DNA from: Gluconobacter morbifer G707
GTDB taxonomy: Bacteria; Pseudomonadota; Alphaproteobacteria; Acetobacterales; Acetobacteraceae
NCBI RefSeq assembly: GCF_000234355.1
Contig: NZ_AGQV01000002.1
Span: 186,001 to 250,000, forward strand
DNA: 64,000 nt
Reading direction: 5' to 3'
The position numbers were made by a program, and so were the translations under genes. Positions 36,315 to 42,498 of this stretch are shown one piece after another. The notes under the pieces are model-generated. The model was not told the origin of the DNA and did not search any database. It was given only the letters and a program-made list of their open reading frames with translations. Each line of letters starts with the position of its first letter. Position 1 is the first letter of the stretch.

Positions 36315-38897
36315 ATGATGGTGACAGGACTGGCAGCCGTCCTCCTTGCGCTTGCGTTCCTGCTCACGCTGGTCAGCATCATTCAGCCCCTGGCAAAACG
36401 TCTGGAGATTTCCGAAGCGGTTCTCCTGGCCCTGACCGGCATCGTTCTGGGGGGCACGGCATCGCTGATCGTGCGTTCTTCTGCAACGGACCTGCTGGAC
36501 GGGGCGGCGGAAGCGCTGATCTATTTCCCGATCAACAGCGAAGCCTTCCTGCTGATCTTCCTGCCCGTGCTGGTCTTCCAGGGCGCAATGGCCATTGATG
36601 TACGCCGGCTGGCGCATGAAGCGGCAACCGTGCTGCTGCTGGCTGTCGTAGCCGTTGTGGTGTCCACTGCCACAATCGGTTTCGCCCTGTATCCCTTTGC
36701 GGGGCAGAGCCAAGTCGTATGTCTTCTTCTCGGCTCCATCGTGGCGACGACCGATCCTTCGGCCGTGGCGGGGATCTTTCGCGAGATTGGTGCCGCTTCC
36801 CGTCTGACCCGACTGGTAGAAGGCGAGGCGCTTCTCAATGATGCCGCAGCGATTTCCATCTTCTCGATCCTGCTGGCCTCTGTCACGGCGCATCATCACA
36901 TCCATCTGGGTGATGCCGTACTGGACTTCCTGACGGCGTTTGGGGGCGCCATTGTCGTTGGTGTCTGTCTGGCACGTCTGACACTGCTCCTCATCACGGG
37001 TCTGGGGGCATCTCCAGCATCGGAAATGAGTCTGACGCTGGCGCTGCCATATATGGTATATATTCTCTGCGATGAACTGCTGGGCTTTTCCGGTGTGGTC
37101 GCCACGGCCGCGGCAGGACTGACCGTCTCGGCTTACGGACCGTCCACGTTCCGTCCGCAGGTCTGGCGTTTTCTGAATGACATGTGGGAACAGCTCATGT
37201 TCTGGGCTGGCTCACTGGTGTTCCTGCTGGCCTCGATGCTAGTGCCGCGGCTACTGATCGGCATGACTAAATGGGACTGTGTCCTGATCCTGATCGCCAG
37301 CGTGGCGGGATTGGCCGCGCGGGCAGCCGTGATTTTCGGCATGCTGCCGCTTCTGGCCATCACAAAGCTCTCTCCACCCGTTCCGCTGCCTTTCAAGGCT
37401 ACAATGGCCTGGGGGGGACTGCGCGGCGCCATCACGCTGGCACTGGCGCTGGCCGTTACTGAAAATCAGAGCGTCTCCAGTCCGATCGCCCATTTCATTG
37501 GTATTATCGCAACCGGCTTCGTGCTGATTACGCTGCTCGTCAACGGTACGACCCTGCGGTCTCTGGTGCTGTTTTTCAAACTGGATCAGCTTTCACCCGT
37601 CGATCAGGCAATCCGGCAACAGATCCTAGGAATCGGGCTAGGAGAAGTCGCAGAACGGACGAAAACACTTTCCGAAGAACTCGGCTTCAGCGAGCAGACC
37701 CGTACCGGCGTCATACGACGACTGGAAAAGCGTGCGGAAAGGGAGAGGGCGGCCAATAATTTCGAATCCGCACTCGGCGACCGGGACCGTGTCAACGTTG
37801 CCCTGATTACCCTTGCAAATCAGGAGCGCTCCATTCTGCTGGACCTGTTCCGTATGCAGGGCCTGTCACGACGCGTGATGGAAACCCTGCTGCGGACAGC
37901 GGAGGCCATGGCGGATGGTGCGCGGCTTGAAGGGCGATATGGATATGTCCGTGCCCTCAAGAGGCGTCTCCAGCCAACACTGCGTTTCCGAATTGCGCAG
38001 ATGCTGCACAGCCGGTTTCACATCGACGAGCCGCTAACGCATTGCATGATGGAACGGTTCGAGATGCTCATTATCGTGCATCTTGTCTCGCTTTCCCTGC
38101 AACGCTTCATCCGTCAGCGGATGGAGCCGACGCTCGGGCCGCGCATTACGGAAATCGTGTCGGAAGTTCTGGGGCGCCAGCGCAAGCTTCTGGACGATGC
38201 CCTTGAAACGTTGCGCCTGCATTATGCGGGGTATTCGGAGGCGCTTGAAAGCCGCATCCTGCGGCAGATCGCGCTGCGTCTCGAGGACGAGGAATACGAT
38301 GCGCTCGAATCAGATAGCCTCATTTCAGAGGAACTGCATCGGGAACTTCATCGGGATATCGAGCGCCGTCGCAGCCGCCTGGACGCTCCGCTGCGTTTCA
38401 ACCTGAAAAGTGGGATCGAGCAGCGCCTGCGGGCTTTTCCGGCATTCAATGGCCTGCCGGACAGCGCCATCCGCAAGCTGTCACGCCGCGTTTCCCTGCA
38501 TTTCGTCTCTCCAGGAGAAATCCTGTGTAAGCGCGACCAGCGGGTAAAGGTCGTATATGCACAGGTTGCCGGACTGGCTGAGGTTCACCTTCCGGAACAG
38601 GAAATTCTCTACGGCAGCGGAGATCTGATCGGAGCGGCTTCTGCCATTCGGAATGAGCGGATGGCGGGCACCGTACGGTGCCTCCAGTTCAGTCATCTCC
38701 TCGCTATTCCGCGACCAGTTTTCAACCGCCTTCTGCGGAAATATCCCATCGTAAAGCGCACCATTATCAAAAGAACAGAAAAGCGCGAGGAGGGGGCCCT
38801 AAGGCCCATGGTTCTACGCGCGCCGGACGGTACGGCTATTCCACCCGCAGCCATTATTGAAGTCCGCAAGACAACAATGCCTTCTCACTCACCCTGA
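36315..38897 (+). CDS. Cation/proton antiporter (NhaP type) with C-terminal regulatory region
   Basis: This 860-aa protein has about twelve membrane segments (residues 1-410) of the CPA1 Na+/H+ antiporter family. Key residues are the ion-site ND in GEALLNDAAAIS, TTDPSAVAG, and WGGLRGAITLALAL. The C-terminal 440 residues are cytosolic and helical, ending in a cyclic-nucleotide-binding-like beta barrel (about 715-820, FPAFNGLPDSAIRKLS then the ILCKRDQR and LAEVHL strands). The plan resembles plant SOS1 and a bacterial subset of NhaP. The consensus phosphate-binding cassette of true cNMP domains is not evident, so ligand binding is uncertain. Its end overlaps the convergent POT gene by 13 bp. 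Such pumps would aid pH and Na+/K+ balance during acid production. Confidence 0.88.
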   Translation: MMVTGLAAVLLALAFLLTLVSIIQPLAKRLEISEAVLLALTGIVLGGTASLIVRSSATDLLDGAAEALIYFPINSEAFLLIFLPVLVFQGAMAIDVRRLAHEAATVLLLAVVAVVVSTATIGFALYPFAGQSQVVCLLLGSIVATTDPSAVAGIFREIGAASRLTRLVEGEALLNDAAAISIFSILLASVTAHHHIHLGDAVLDFLTAFGGAIVVGVCLARLTLLLITGLGASPASEMSLTLALPYMVYILCDELLGFSGVVATAAAGLTVSAYGPSTFRPQVWRFLNDMWEQLMFWAGSLVFLLASMLVPRLLIGMTKWDCVLILIASVAGLAARAAVIFGMLPLLAITKLSPPVPLPFKATMAWGGLRGAITLALALAVTENQSVSSPIAHFIGIIATGFVLITLLVNGTTLRSLVLFFKLDQLSPVDQAIRQQILGIGLGEVAERTKTLSEELGFSEQTRTGVIRRLEKRAERERAANNFESALGDRDRVNVALITLANQERSILLDLFRMQGLSRRVMETLLRTAEAMADGARLEGRYGYVRALKRRLQPTLRFRIAQMLHSRFHIDEPLTHCMMERFEMLIIVHLVSLSLQRFIRQRMEPTLGPRITEIVSEVLGRQRKLLDDALETLRLHYAGYSEALESRILRQIALRLEDEEYDALESDSLISEELHRELHRDIERRRSRLDAPLRFNLKSGIEQRLRAFPAFNGLPDSAIRKLSRRVSLHFVSPGEILCKRDQRVKVVYAQVAGLAEVHLPEQEILYGSGDLIGAASAIRNERMAGTVRCLQFSHLLAIPRPVFNRLLRKYPIVKRTIIKRTEKREEGALRPMVLRAPDGTAIPPAAIIEVRKTTMPSHSP

Positions 38898-40297
38898 GAA
38901 GGAGCGGAAACTGATGTTTCGGGTGCCAGAAGGGGCCGGAAAATCATGGCGCAGAATCCCAGAACCACCGAGGCTCCAAGGGCTGCCCCGGAGTGAAGGA
39001 ACCAGAATGTAGCGTCACTGACATGTCCAAGGAGCGTTGAGAACTTGCCGACGATCAGGTTGGCCAGAAACAAGTGAAGCGAAAAACAGGCCACCATGAT
39101 GGTGTTCACACTTTTCGGGGCAGCCCGTGAGAACAGAGCCATCCCGATGGCGTAGTTCATCGCAAAACCGATATCGTTGACGGTATGGAACGCAATGCCC
39201 CAGAGCAGACTGAGCTGATGGGGCTGGGGAGTGATCCATGATCCGAGAGCGAGCAGAAGCGGGCTGAAAGACGCAATGAATGTACCGATCGCAACTTTCG
39301 TGATTTCGGACACGTCCGGGCGATAGCGGGCATAGACTTTCCAGAATCCCAGAACCGCGACAGCCGTTATGGTGCTGATAAAACCATCAAGAGAAAGCAG
39401 CGCGCTGACCGGGAAGGGATAGCCCAGCAGGGTCAAGGCGTAGTGCTGCTGTCCCCACAGAAGGTAACCATCAAAAATTTCTTCATTCGGCAGGGCGGCA
39501 ATTGCCAGAACCGGAATGAGAAACAGGAGAAGTGCGCAGGTTTTCTTTTCCGTCCGTGTCAGGGCAGGGCGAGGAACCGAGACCTTTCTTGCGGCAATGT
39601 TCTCGGACGGTAGCCAGTGTCGCCCGGCAGCATAAATGACCAGTCCGATCAGCATTCCCAGACCGGCCGCCAGAAACCCCCAGTGCCAGGCGACCTGCGC
39701 CAGTGCGCCGCAGAGAAGCGGAGAGACGATCACCGCAGCCTGAATGCCCAGCATGTAAATCTGGTAGGCATCCGAGCGTCGTCGATCGTCCACGGCATAA
39801 AGCGCGCCGACCTGTGCCCGGAGACCGCCTGCAGCGCCAATCCCCAGCAGCAGCAATCCCAAAGCGATCACAAAGCTCCAGTCAAATGACAGCAGGATAT
39901 GTCCCGCTGTCATCAGAACGGCCCCAAGCAGGATCGTACGGGTCTGGCCAAGCACGCGATCTGCCAGAAAACCGCCAAACAGCGGCATGGCGTAAATTCC
40001 CGCCAAAAAAAGCCCCGTGATCGCACCTGCCGTGGCCTGACGGCCGGAAGGTGCATAAAGGAATGAGACGAAGTGGTGCAGGGCGCCATACCCCCAGACA
40101 TGGGCGACATGCTCCGGTGTCAGAAGGCTGTACGTAAGATAGAGAACGAGAATGGCCTGCATCCCATAAAGCGAGAACGCCACCCAGGCTTCTGTCAGCA
40201 CCAGAATCCACAGGCCCCTGGGATGTCCCATAAAATCGGGCCTTGCAGAGGCAGAAAAAGAATCCGTGGGAGGGGAAACGGGCAGAATTTCGGCCAA
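38885..40297 (-). CDS. POT family peptide/proton symporter
   Basis: The 470-aa protein has about twelve to fourteen membrane spans and POT/PTR2 landmarks: LYGMQAILVLYLTY in helix 1 (family: YYGMRAxLxxYL), the A-motif-like FGGFLADRVLGQTRTILLG, and GNGxFKP-like AAGGLRAQVG. The family imports di- and tripeptides with protons. The usual ExxER motif of helix 1 is reduced to TEAWVAFSLYG, so the conserved Glu/Arg charges are partly lost and the coupling could differ. The only start giving the full N-terminus is TTG at 40297, with AAGAGA about six bases upstream; an ATG at 40231 is an alternative. Upstream lies the palindrome-rich gap. Confidence 0.82.
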   Translation of the reverse strand: MAEILPVSPPTDSFSASARPDFMGHPRGLWILVLTEAWVAFSLYGMQAILVLYLTYSLLTPEHVAHVWGYGALHHFVSFLYAPSGRQATAGAITGLFLAGIYAMPLFGGFLADRVLGQTRTILLGAVLMTAGHILLSFDWSFVIALGLLLLGIGAAGGLRAQVGALYAVDDRRRSDAYQIYMLGIQAAVIVSPLLCGALAQVAWHWGFLAAGLGMLIGLVIYAAGRHWLPSENIAARKVSVPRPALTRTEKKTCALLLFLIPVLAIAALPNEEIFDGYLLWGQQHYALTLLGYPFPVSALLSLDGFISTITAVAVLGFWKVYARYRPDVSEITKVAIGTFIASFSPLLLALGSWITPQPHQLSLLWGIAFHTVNDIGFAMNYAIGMALFSRAAPKSVNTIMVACFSLHLFLANLIVGKFSTLLGHVSDATFWFLHSGAALGASVVLGFCAMIFRPLLAPETSVSAPSQGE

Positions 40298-40371
40298 GGC
40301 TTTTCTCTTGCTCAGTCAGGGCAGGTGTAAGAATGGCGTAATGGCCAAACACAGGAATGGTAAAGAGGGAA

Positions 40372-40400
40372 AGCGCTTATGGCGCTTTGCCATAAGCGCT
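40372..40400. repeat. 12-bp perfect inverted repeat (stem A)
   Basis: AGCGCTTATGGC (40372-40383) and GCCATAAGCGCT (40389-40400) are exact reverse complements with a five-base loop. This stem shares bases with stem B (40378-40422), so the two cannot form in one RNA molecule at once. Confidence 0.9.
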
Positions 40401-40422
40401 CATTCCATGGCAAAGCGCCATA
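40378..40422. repeat. 15-bp perfect inverted repeat (stem B), mutually exclusive with stem A
   Basis: TATGGCGCTTTGCCA (40378-40392) and TGGCAAAGCGCCATA (40408-40422) are exact reverse complements, 15 bases apart. The left arm overlaps both arms of stem A, giving two competing folds on either strand. Confidence 0.9.
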
Positions 40423-40498
40423 GAACATGATTGGGCCATTTTGCCATAGACCGTATCAAACTGGCCTTTTGGCAATTTGCCTTAAAGAAGAAACCCAA

Positions 40499-40524
40499 GT
40501 TTCCCGCAGAATTCTGCGGGAAAC
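40499..40524. repeat. Perfect 26-bp palindrome
   Basis: From 40499 to 40524 the sequence equals its own reverse complement, centred on GAATTC with arms GTTTCCCGCA. A gapless palindrome this long suits a dimeric DNA-binding protein or a cruciform. It belongs to neither flanking gene. Confidence 0.9.
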
Positions 40525-40860
40525 GACACATCTAAATCAGTGGCAAAATGCCAAAATTGGCTTTGGTCTTTGCGGTGGTTGGATTTACACGAGCCCGAGG
40601 ATTGCAAGGCTGAGGCCATCAAACAGGATGAAATTCGATTGTCATCGAGAATGGAAACAGGAACACACGCAAGTCGTATAAGATATATTATGCCAACTAG
40701 TGTGGTAAAAATATCGATTTTTCTGACGATTACGTGAGCACACACGCAATTGTTGCGAAGAATGTCCGAATGATCGCTAGGAAGAATAAAGTTCAGTTCA
40801 TCTGGCTGTCATGTCTGAGCCGCAGCCGGATTTTTTGCCACCGCTGGGAGCGGCTACCGC

Positions 40861-42498
40861 ATGCCCCGTTTTTGTTTTCGTAATCTATTCCTGTTTGGCA
40901 GTGCCCTGTGTGTTGGATCACTTTCCTTCTTCCCGTCATCAGCCTTCGCTGATGATTATACGGAGTTGCTCGATATTCTTCGGGCAAAAGGCAGCCTCAC
41001 GCGCTCTGAGTACAGTAGCCTTCTCGCGCATCACCTGCATCATGCGCGTCCTTCCCTGACGCCTGAACGGCAGACCGCCTATCAGCCTGCCAGCCGGCAT
41101 CGTAACCGCTACATGCGTTATGGGCCCCAGAATGAAGGCAGTACGCTTGAAGCTCCTCCTGACGTCGAGACAATCGCTTCGATCAACGCGGCACGGCAGG
41201 CTGCGCAGGATGCCCGCATGAGTGCAGCTGACGCTCGCAACTCCCTCATGGAGGCCCGCCGGACCTACAATCCGGACAGCATTGTGAGGGTAAAACCCTA
41301 TGTTGCGGGTAAAGGCGTTACGATTCAGGCCGGACAGATCGATATTAACGTCTCCGGCTTCGTAAATGCCTATTACACCTACAACAGCCCTGCAGGCGGC
41401 CGGGCGGTTGCCGGTGGTGTCTCCACAGGCAGCAGCGGATTCGATTCCTCGTCCATCCGTAATGGACTGCTGCCTGGCGGCCTGATCCTGAAGCTCAATA
41501 CGACGCAGTCCGGAATTGATCTCGGGGCCGTCTTCGGCATGTATCCAGGTATCAACAACGCAGATGTGGGGACGTTCAATGCCAACTCGGGCGGTAGCCC
41601 CGTTGGTCTGGGCACGGCCGGACTGGATTTTCGTCAGGTTTACATGACCGCCGGAACCAAGGATTTCGGTACCGTCAAGCTGGGTCGTGATATCGCCCTG
41701 TTTGCTTCTGACGCCATCCTGAATGACGCCACGCTTCTCAGTGTGGGCAGTACGGGCAGTAACGCCAATCCGGCCAATACGTCCCTTGGCCGTATCGGCG
41801 TGGGTTATGTTTATACGGACTGGCTGCCGCAGATCACCTACATTTCTCCGAAATGGCGTGGTTTCCAGGCTTCCGTCGGCATCATGACACCGCTGGATGA
41901 ATTCAATTATGCGGGCGGCGGTCTCTCCGCCACGACAACGCAGCACAGTTCACCCATGCTTCAGGGCAAACTGACCTATGACGGCAACATTGCCGGCTTC
42001 ACCACCCGGTTCTGGACGAGTTACCTCGTGCAGCATCAGCAGAATCTTACGAGTTCCACTCTGGGAAGCAGCAGCCGGAAAGGTACGACGGTTGAAGCCG
42101 GCGACGTCGGCGTGAAAATCAGTCGCGGTCCGTTTGAAGGCGTGGCCTATTACTACTACGGCAGCGGCCTTGGCACGACGGGACTGTTCTTTGACGGTGT
42201 CGCCAGCAATGGACGCAAGCGTGATTCTGAAGGGTATTACGTCCAGGCAGCCTACAAGATCCTGCCGAAACTTAAGATGGTCGGCAGCTATGGTGTCAGT
42301 AATCTCTATCGGGCACAGGGAGATGACAGCCCGTCACTGGTCCGGCGCAACCAGTCCGAAGTGGGTGCTATTTACTACAACCTGACCGACTGGTTCACGA
42401 TCGTGGGCGAATACGCTCATACGGAATCGGACGGACACAGCCGCCTCTACAAGGAGAGCGATCATACATTCTCCGCTGGTGCGATGATGACGTTCTGA
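40861..42498 (+). CDS. Outer-membrane porin
   Basis: This 545-aa protein has a signal peptide (cleavage after Ala30, AFA), a periplasmic helical N-terminus of about 100 residues (ELLDILRAKGSLTRSEYSSLL, then an Ala/Arg/Asp coiled-coil-like stretch at about 105-135), and a long beta-barrel part from about residue 160. That part has alternating polar and aromatic strands and ends in a terminal Phe (GAMMTF), the usual signal for outer-membrane insertion. It resembles porins found in several copies in acetic acid bacteria. GGAG lies ten bases before the ATG. A strong terminator follows. Solute selectivity cannot be read. Confidence 0.85.
   Translation: MPRFCFRNLFLFGSALCVGSLSFFPSSAFADDYTELLDILRAKGSLTRSEYSSLLAHHLHHARPSLTPERQTAYQPASRHRNRYMRYGPQNEGSTLEAPPDVETIASINAARQAAQDARMSAADARNSLMEARRTYNPDSIVRVKPYVAGKGVTIQAGQIDINVSGFVNAYYTYNSPAGGRAVAGGVSTGSSGFDSSSIRNGLLPGGLILKLNTTQSGIDLGAVFGMYPGINNADVGTFNANSGGSPVGLGTAGLDFRQVYMTAGTKDFGTVKLGRDIALFASDAILNDATLLSVGSTGSNANPANTSLGRIGVGYVYTDWLPQITYISPKWRGFQASVGIMTPLDEFNYAGGGLSATTTQHSSPMLQGKLTYDGNIAGFTTRFWTSYLVQHQQNLTSSTLGSSSRKGTTVEAGDVGVKISRGPFEGVAYYYYGSGLGTTGLFFDGVASNGRKRDSEGYYVQAAYKILPKLKMVGSYGVSNLYRAQGDDSPSLVRRNQSEVGAIYYNLTDWFTIVGEYAHTESDGHSRLYKESDHTFSAGAMMTF

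Follow-up and report, generated by a model that had tools for sequence, protein, structure and literature searches.

The window, that is the whole 64,000-nucleotide stretch of Gluconobacter morbifer G707 DNA that was analyzed, carries a gene for a POT-family (oligopeptide:H+ symporter-like) transporter at 38885–40297 on the minus strand, which matches PTR2 with 69.1 bits (cut-off 27) and TIGR00924 with 129.4 bits, slightly below the cut-off of 130.2. Its closest named relatives are found in G. albidus, G. sp. Gdi, G. cerinus and G. wancherniae, the related POT proteins are 55–71% identical to the copy in the window, and a megablast comparison of the gene with plasmids gave no match. A divergent gene, called a porin in the preliminary description, is located at 40861–42498 on the plus strand; it matches no family in Pfam, PHROGs or NCBIfam, has no relative in the PDB, and is conserved beside the palindrome array described below at all 20 loci compared, that of the window among them. 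A chromosomal dif site, comprising a XerC arm, a GATATA center and a XerD arm, is found at 40671–40698 on the plus strand, where it separates the array from the porin gene, and the piece between array and porin that is conserved at the level of BLAST contains it.

The 28-bp dif motif was found in 26 of 26 Gluconobacter genomes, 122–423 bp before the POT start in every one of them, and in the window its center lies 139–300 bp from the centers of the array sites. The motif that orients FtsK, KOPS, is GGGNAGGG, and over 204 kb it converges on this site, with 27 plus and 3 minus copies on the left and 1 plus and 31 minus copies on the right (Fisher 5e-13). Both the 28-bp motif and KOPS-like motifs pointing at it from either side, as is proper to a chromosomal dif, are therefore present here. 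GC skew differs across dif with no clean change of sign, and the cumulative skew has no extreme there. The same form of dif appears in the accessible text of PMC2731167. Second dif-like sites with another center occur on other contigs of six Gluconobacter genomes (G021:C33:3872, G015:C6:4052, G004:C25:20129, G023:C26:5955, G019:C10:8224, G019:C13:2579 and G017:C34:25229) and are perhaps plasmid Xer sites.

The interval between the two genes had been described as densely palindromic, and nearly all of the structures reported there were recovered: a 12-bp stem with arms at 40372–40383 and 40389–40400, a gapless 26-bp palindrome at 40499–40524 and two smaller palindromes, GGCAATTTGCC at 40471–40481 and TGGCAAAATGCCA at 40541–40553, the whole beginning 75 bp upstream of the TTG codon of POT (40297) as claimed. 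The stem said to compete with the first one also exists (40378–40393 and 40407–40422), with a length of 16 bp instead of the 15 bp reported; the two overlap because the sites called 1 and 2 below are adjacent inverted copies of one palindrome. Palindromes exceed chance by far in this DNA, since five centers with perfect arms of at least 12 bp occur in the 263 bp upstream of POT compared with a mean of 0.0005 in shuffled copies, which preserve base composition only and none of which (0 of 2000) reached the observed count. The 26-bp perfect palindrome, located between sites 4 and 5, is not of the operator type in sequence and was not seen in the POT–porin intergenic regions of the 19 relatives scanned. 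At the level of BLAST the genome holds no second copy of the intergenic region, the self-match of the palindrome aside.

Viewed as 13-bp cores, the array consists of five copies of the palindrome TGGCAWWWTGCCA, one of them degenerate. Putative operator site 1 (TGGCGCTTTGCCA, 40380–40392) has one mismatch to TGGCANNNTGCCA and is the nearest to POT, its center lying 89 bp before the start codon; site 2 (TGGCAAAGCGCCA, 40408–40420) is an exact inverted copy of it 28 bp away. Site 3 (GGCCATTTTGCCA, 40434–40446) is the degenerate copy with two mismatches, site 4 (TGGCAATTTGCCT, 40470–40482) is overlapped by a weaker TGGCCTTTTGGCA at 40462–40474, and site 5 (TGGCAAAATGCCA, 40541–40553) is the sole perfect array site in this genome. 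A matrix built from 16 distinct sites in the promoter of the regulator described below scores the five putative sites at 19.0, 16.3, 13.1, 18.9 and 22.7 respectively, so that they rank first in the window (next match 8.8) and also in the 204 kb around dif (next match 12.5, 97 kb away). The matrix finds a mean of 4.9 matches per POT upstream region (0 in G005) compared with 0.016 in shuffled sequence; its input sites were collected with a consensus learned from the array, one mismatch being allowed, and the comparison is thus not fully independent.

The DNA upstream of POT was compared in 26 Gluconobacter genomes, that of the window included, and in 25 of them it holds three to six copies of TGGCAWWWTGCCA with at most one mismatch (106 in total), which bears out the conservation among relatives asked for in the preliminary description. 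The nearest copy is centered 80–89 bp before the POT start in these 25 genomes, the distance being taken in G001, G008, G011 and G022 from the codon aligned to residue 1, which is no start codon in these four. The spacing between sites 1 and 2 is 26–28 bp in 21 of 22 genomes and 29 bp in the other one. The pairwise identity of site 1 amounts to 0.92, against 0.33 and 0.49 in the flanking 13 bp (25 genomes), which looks like the footprint of protein binding. In the exceptional genome, G005, the array is absent while the regulator with its own sites, POT and dif are all kept, POT standing 122 bp from dif; in G010 every array site has one mismatch and none is perfect. Some neighbouring inverted operators have off-consensus letters in common (sites 1 and 2 in the window and in L018, sites 3 and 4 in L013 and L016), as if one copy had corrected its neighbour.

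Between the array and POT a promoter can be presumed on the minus strand, with a –35 element TTTACC at 40359–40364, 22–26 bp downstream of the center of site 1, and a weak –10 element TACGCC at 40335–40340. TTTAC was found in 24 of 26 genomes, and a TACG-type element follows TTTACN after 17–18 bp in 20 of 26. According to the accessible text of PMC5756330, Gluconobacter promoters are lax and a G at position 3 is typical of their –35 regions; TTTACC lacks this G, and the presumed promoter is weak.

The preliminary description also proposed a search of the genome for a regulator, and a candidate can now be named: a XRE/HTH_3 protein of 130 residues encoded at G000:C7:15556–15948 on the minus strand, whose HTH_3 domain (PF01381, 40.4 bits) lies above the curated cut-off of 23. 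The gene is present in one copy in each of the 26 Gluconobacter genomes, and outside the genus it was found in one of ten family genomes of other genera (G033, at 83%), a few further genomes giving weak matches; between residues 30 and 105, 71 of 76 positions are invariant. Operators of the array type are located near –68 and –23 before its start codon at all 27 regulator loci, that is the 26 of Gluconobacter and that of G033, where the positions are –80 and –23. Hence, as for an autoregulated phage-type repressor, operators stand in the promoter region of the gene itself at 27 of 27 loci. A strongly conserved predicted promoter of the form TTGACN-N17-TAATTT lies past the 3' end of the gene, antisense to it and aimed toward a block of phage-like genes, and the 17-bp spacer holds an operator in 26 of 26 Gluconobacter genomes (26 of 27 loci by pattern); the 27th locus, G033, has a TTGACA variant of this promoter with the operator present. 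Operators in this antisense region (L073–L099) are found at about +588 and about +620 from the regulator start, the second one upstream of the promoter. An operator overlapping the predicted core promoter of phage-like genes is likewise a feature of phage-type repressors, and the placement of operators at this locus suggests the geometry of repression.

The distribution of the motif over whole genomes ties the two loci together. Perfect TGGCAWWWTGCCA occurs 109 times in the 26 genomes, against 5 occurrences of a reversed control pattern; 64 copies belong to the array, 34 lie within 1 kb of the regulator gene and 11 are elsewhere. Perfect array sites were found in 24 of 26 genomes and perfect sites at the regulator locus in 26 of 26, and the genome of the window has three, one in the array and two at the regulator locus. 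The looser search of this genome for TGGCA-N0-10-TGCCA, which had been recommended at the outset, gave 60 hits compared with 48 for the reversed control, the pattern being too loose to mean much. TGGCNWWWNGCCA gave 9 against 3, with four matches at the array or the regulator locus and five elsewhere, two of which were inspected and both lie within open reading frames. Sites with one mismatch compare with their controls as 8 to 7 in G033, 9 to 0 in G026 and 20 to 9 in G005.

The regulator gene is adjoined on the opposite strand by a terminase-head-tail block of about 15 kb at one chromosomal place (G000:C7, about 16.0–30.9 kb; L103:8064 onward, L152). Ten block proteins were compared with PHROGs and six matched, as small terminase, large terminase, major head protein, baseplate wedge and two proteins of unknown function; no integrase was among the matches, and the small terminase has a weak transposase match. 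The five genomes compared (G000, G021, G005, G001 and G033) have the same gene order in the block and share its flanks in part, with neighbours common to G000, G005 and G033. Head and packaging genes thus stand at one chromosomal place in all five, as in domesticated prophages and gene transfer agents, and the block is a candidate gene-transfer-agent-like cluster; no publication on it was found in the open PMC literature searched. Relatives of its head protein were found in 91 of 200 family genomes sampled. The block of G000 is without about 3.3 kb that are present in G021:C8 (near G000:C7 24.64 kb). A viral contig with an identical regulator is likewise short, at 16,991 bp; of nine other close matches, one is a fragment of 7.1 kb and the remaining eight measure 20.3–22.2 kb.

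Taken together, these observations make it likely that the array consists of five operators for the XRE/HTH_3 repressor that heads the phage-like cluster, and that this repressor also controls, most likely represses, POT. The 130-residue protein, encoded elsewhere in the same genome, would bind each ATGGCAWWWTGCCAT-type palindrome as a dimer; it would hold down its own promoter and so set its own level, and it would keep the promoters of the packaging, head and tail genes silent. At the array the same type of site would place POT under its control, most likely by repression. The sites are conserved, the motif is common to both loci, the two occur together throughout the genus and the placement at the regulator locus is repressor-like; from these features of the genomes we infer the binding by the XRE protein, its dimeric form and the direction of POT control. 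Some observations speak against this reading: G005 has no array, G010 has no perfect array site, 11 of the 109 perfect sites lie elsewhere, and the presumed –35 element of POT departs from the Gluconobacter type and is placed where an activator could also work. The conservation of the array, the matrix and the motif shared with the regulator locus give good support to the earlier suggestion that several sites serve one dimeric regulator, and the palindromes look like protein-binding sites and not like an RNA switch. The accompanying suggestion that both divergent transporters are controlled agrees, for POT, with position and conservation, and is doubtful for the porin, a poor target candidate because in G001, G008, G011 and G022 the ORF layout at the locus shows the array beside POT and dif with no porin adjacent, and because dif separates the porin from the array.

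Activation of POT by the same regulator, bound upstream of the –35 element, is possible because the presumed promoter begins 22–26 bp beyond the center of site 1, with the other sites further upstream still. We regard it as rather unlikely, given that the same motif sits in a repressor-like position at the regulator locus, that the POT promoter is itself presumed and that the related XRE proteins of Caulobacter are described as repressors in the accessible text of PMC13236601 and PMC10688885. What the two loci have in common is a motif, and on this ground some other regulator could bind the array, the XRE gene being just another target with the same operator. This appears improbable: no other regulator gene was seen beside such sites, whereas the XRE gene has them in all 26 genomes and in G033, near-fixed in position, which is typical of autoregulation. 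The nearness of dif, which lies 139–300 bp from the sites in the window and 122–423 bp before the POT start in 26 of 26 genomes, would fit an array that serves the terminus and not a gene, with a terminus protein docking there or using it as an accessory site, a reading to which we give very little weight. G005 has dif with no array, the contigs of the second dif-like sites in six genomes carry no perfect operator, and the near-constant distance is the one from the array to POT. Terminus sites of the matS kind are many and spread over the terminus region; here the operators are not scattered around dif, and apart from the five array sites no matrix match of at least 13 occurs in 204 kb. An equally slight chance attaches to the idea that the largest array of the repressor, standing beside dif, titrates or docks it and so makes free repressor and particle production depend on the state of the terminus or on how many copies of it there are, with POT co-regulated or a passenger.

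The other suggestion of the preliminary description, a RNA switch formed by the competing stems in the POT leader, was not borne out and seems extremely improbable. The strand does fold better than all 200 shuffled versions (z –6.7), and in some genomes neighbouring sites have off-consensus letters in common, as noted above; the match between sites 1 and 2 was reached in 41 of 5000 shuffles and that between sites 3 and 4 in 289 of 5000, numbers in which kinship is not controlled. Against this, folding is expected of any row of palindromes, in 6 of 22 genomes only 8 of the 13 core positions still pair between sites 1 and 2, the four Rfam matches are weak with none at the gathering score, and the presumed POT promoter lies downstream of the array.

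The repressor reading has partial counterparts in known systems. Caulobacter CdxB, CdxA, RtrA and RtrB and phage TgrL are small XRE regulators (CdxB has 132 aa, with an N-terminal helix-turn-helix), and the Caulobacter proteins repress genes controlling a prophage-like gene transfer agent, besides binding other chromosomal promoters, as described in the accessible text of PMC13236601 and PMC10688885. Likened by description, the logic is similar: a small XRE protein, a prophage-like cluster and further chromosomal sites. The Caulobacter proteins nevertheless have gafYZ and lypABC as their targets, and that text does not describe them as heading the particle cluster, whereas the Gluconobacter regulator gene adjoins the cluster and its likely further target is the gene of a transporter, located beside dif. 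The palindromic operators and the sites at its own promoter also recall phage repressors of the CI/C2 type, and the helix-turn-helix is related to that of P22 C2 (E 2e-4, or 5e-4 with a profile); unlike these, the Gluconobacter regulator has only 130 aa and belongs to a genus-conserved block instead of a whole phage genome. Its best NCBIfam match is the RstR family of repressors (NF041951), where 34.1 bits fall below the cut-off of 80 and do not place it in the family. The coat protein of the Komagataeibacter phages phiKX1 and phiKX2 is 66% identical to the head protein of the block, and the phiKX1 record lists small terminase, terminase, portal, coat, sheath and baseplate J in a similar order; unlike these phages with their 53-kb genome, the block covers about 15 kb at one chromosomal place.

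An operator array is ordinary in kind; the novelty lies in what it is combined with, namely a repressor of phage type, a phage-like block that is inherited and, at dif, the gene of a transporter. No account of such a regulon was found in the open PMC literature searched on Gluconobacter, and it is not reported in the accessible text of PMC5756330, PMC8566455 and PMC9379143. One short motif links a near-invariant phage-type repressor, an inherited phage-like cluster of head and tail genes and, at the chromosome terminus, a transporter for nutrients, which makes a small and directly testable regulon in an industrially used genus. If the repressor truly controls POT, this would be a clear case of a host gene recruited to a phage-derived circuit and kept genus-wide.

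The 11 perfect sites found elsewhere were placed on ORF maps, and none was retained as a core target. Two of them stand directly before a lysozyme-like gene (L106:4986 in G001 and L110:5432 in G008), a gene found in 4 of 26 genomes with one of the matches weak; four lie inside one reading frame in G001, G008, G011 and G022, taken for metG by its position, and the remaining ones are mostly within other reading frames. The single perfect operator of G033 stands close to where two reading frames start in divergent directions; no dif-like sequence was found in the 11 kb around it at the limit used, nor was the dif of this genome located. In G001 and G033 the regulator gene is followed by a gene for an AcrB-type pump (L107:6088–9252 and L117:1948–5112), with operators between the two.
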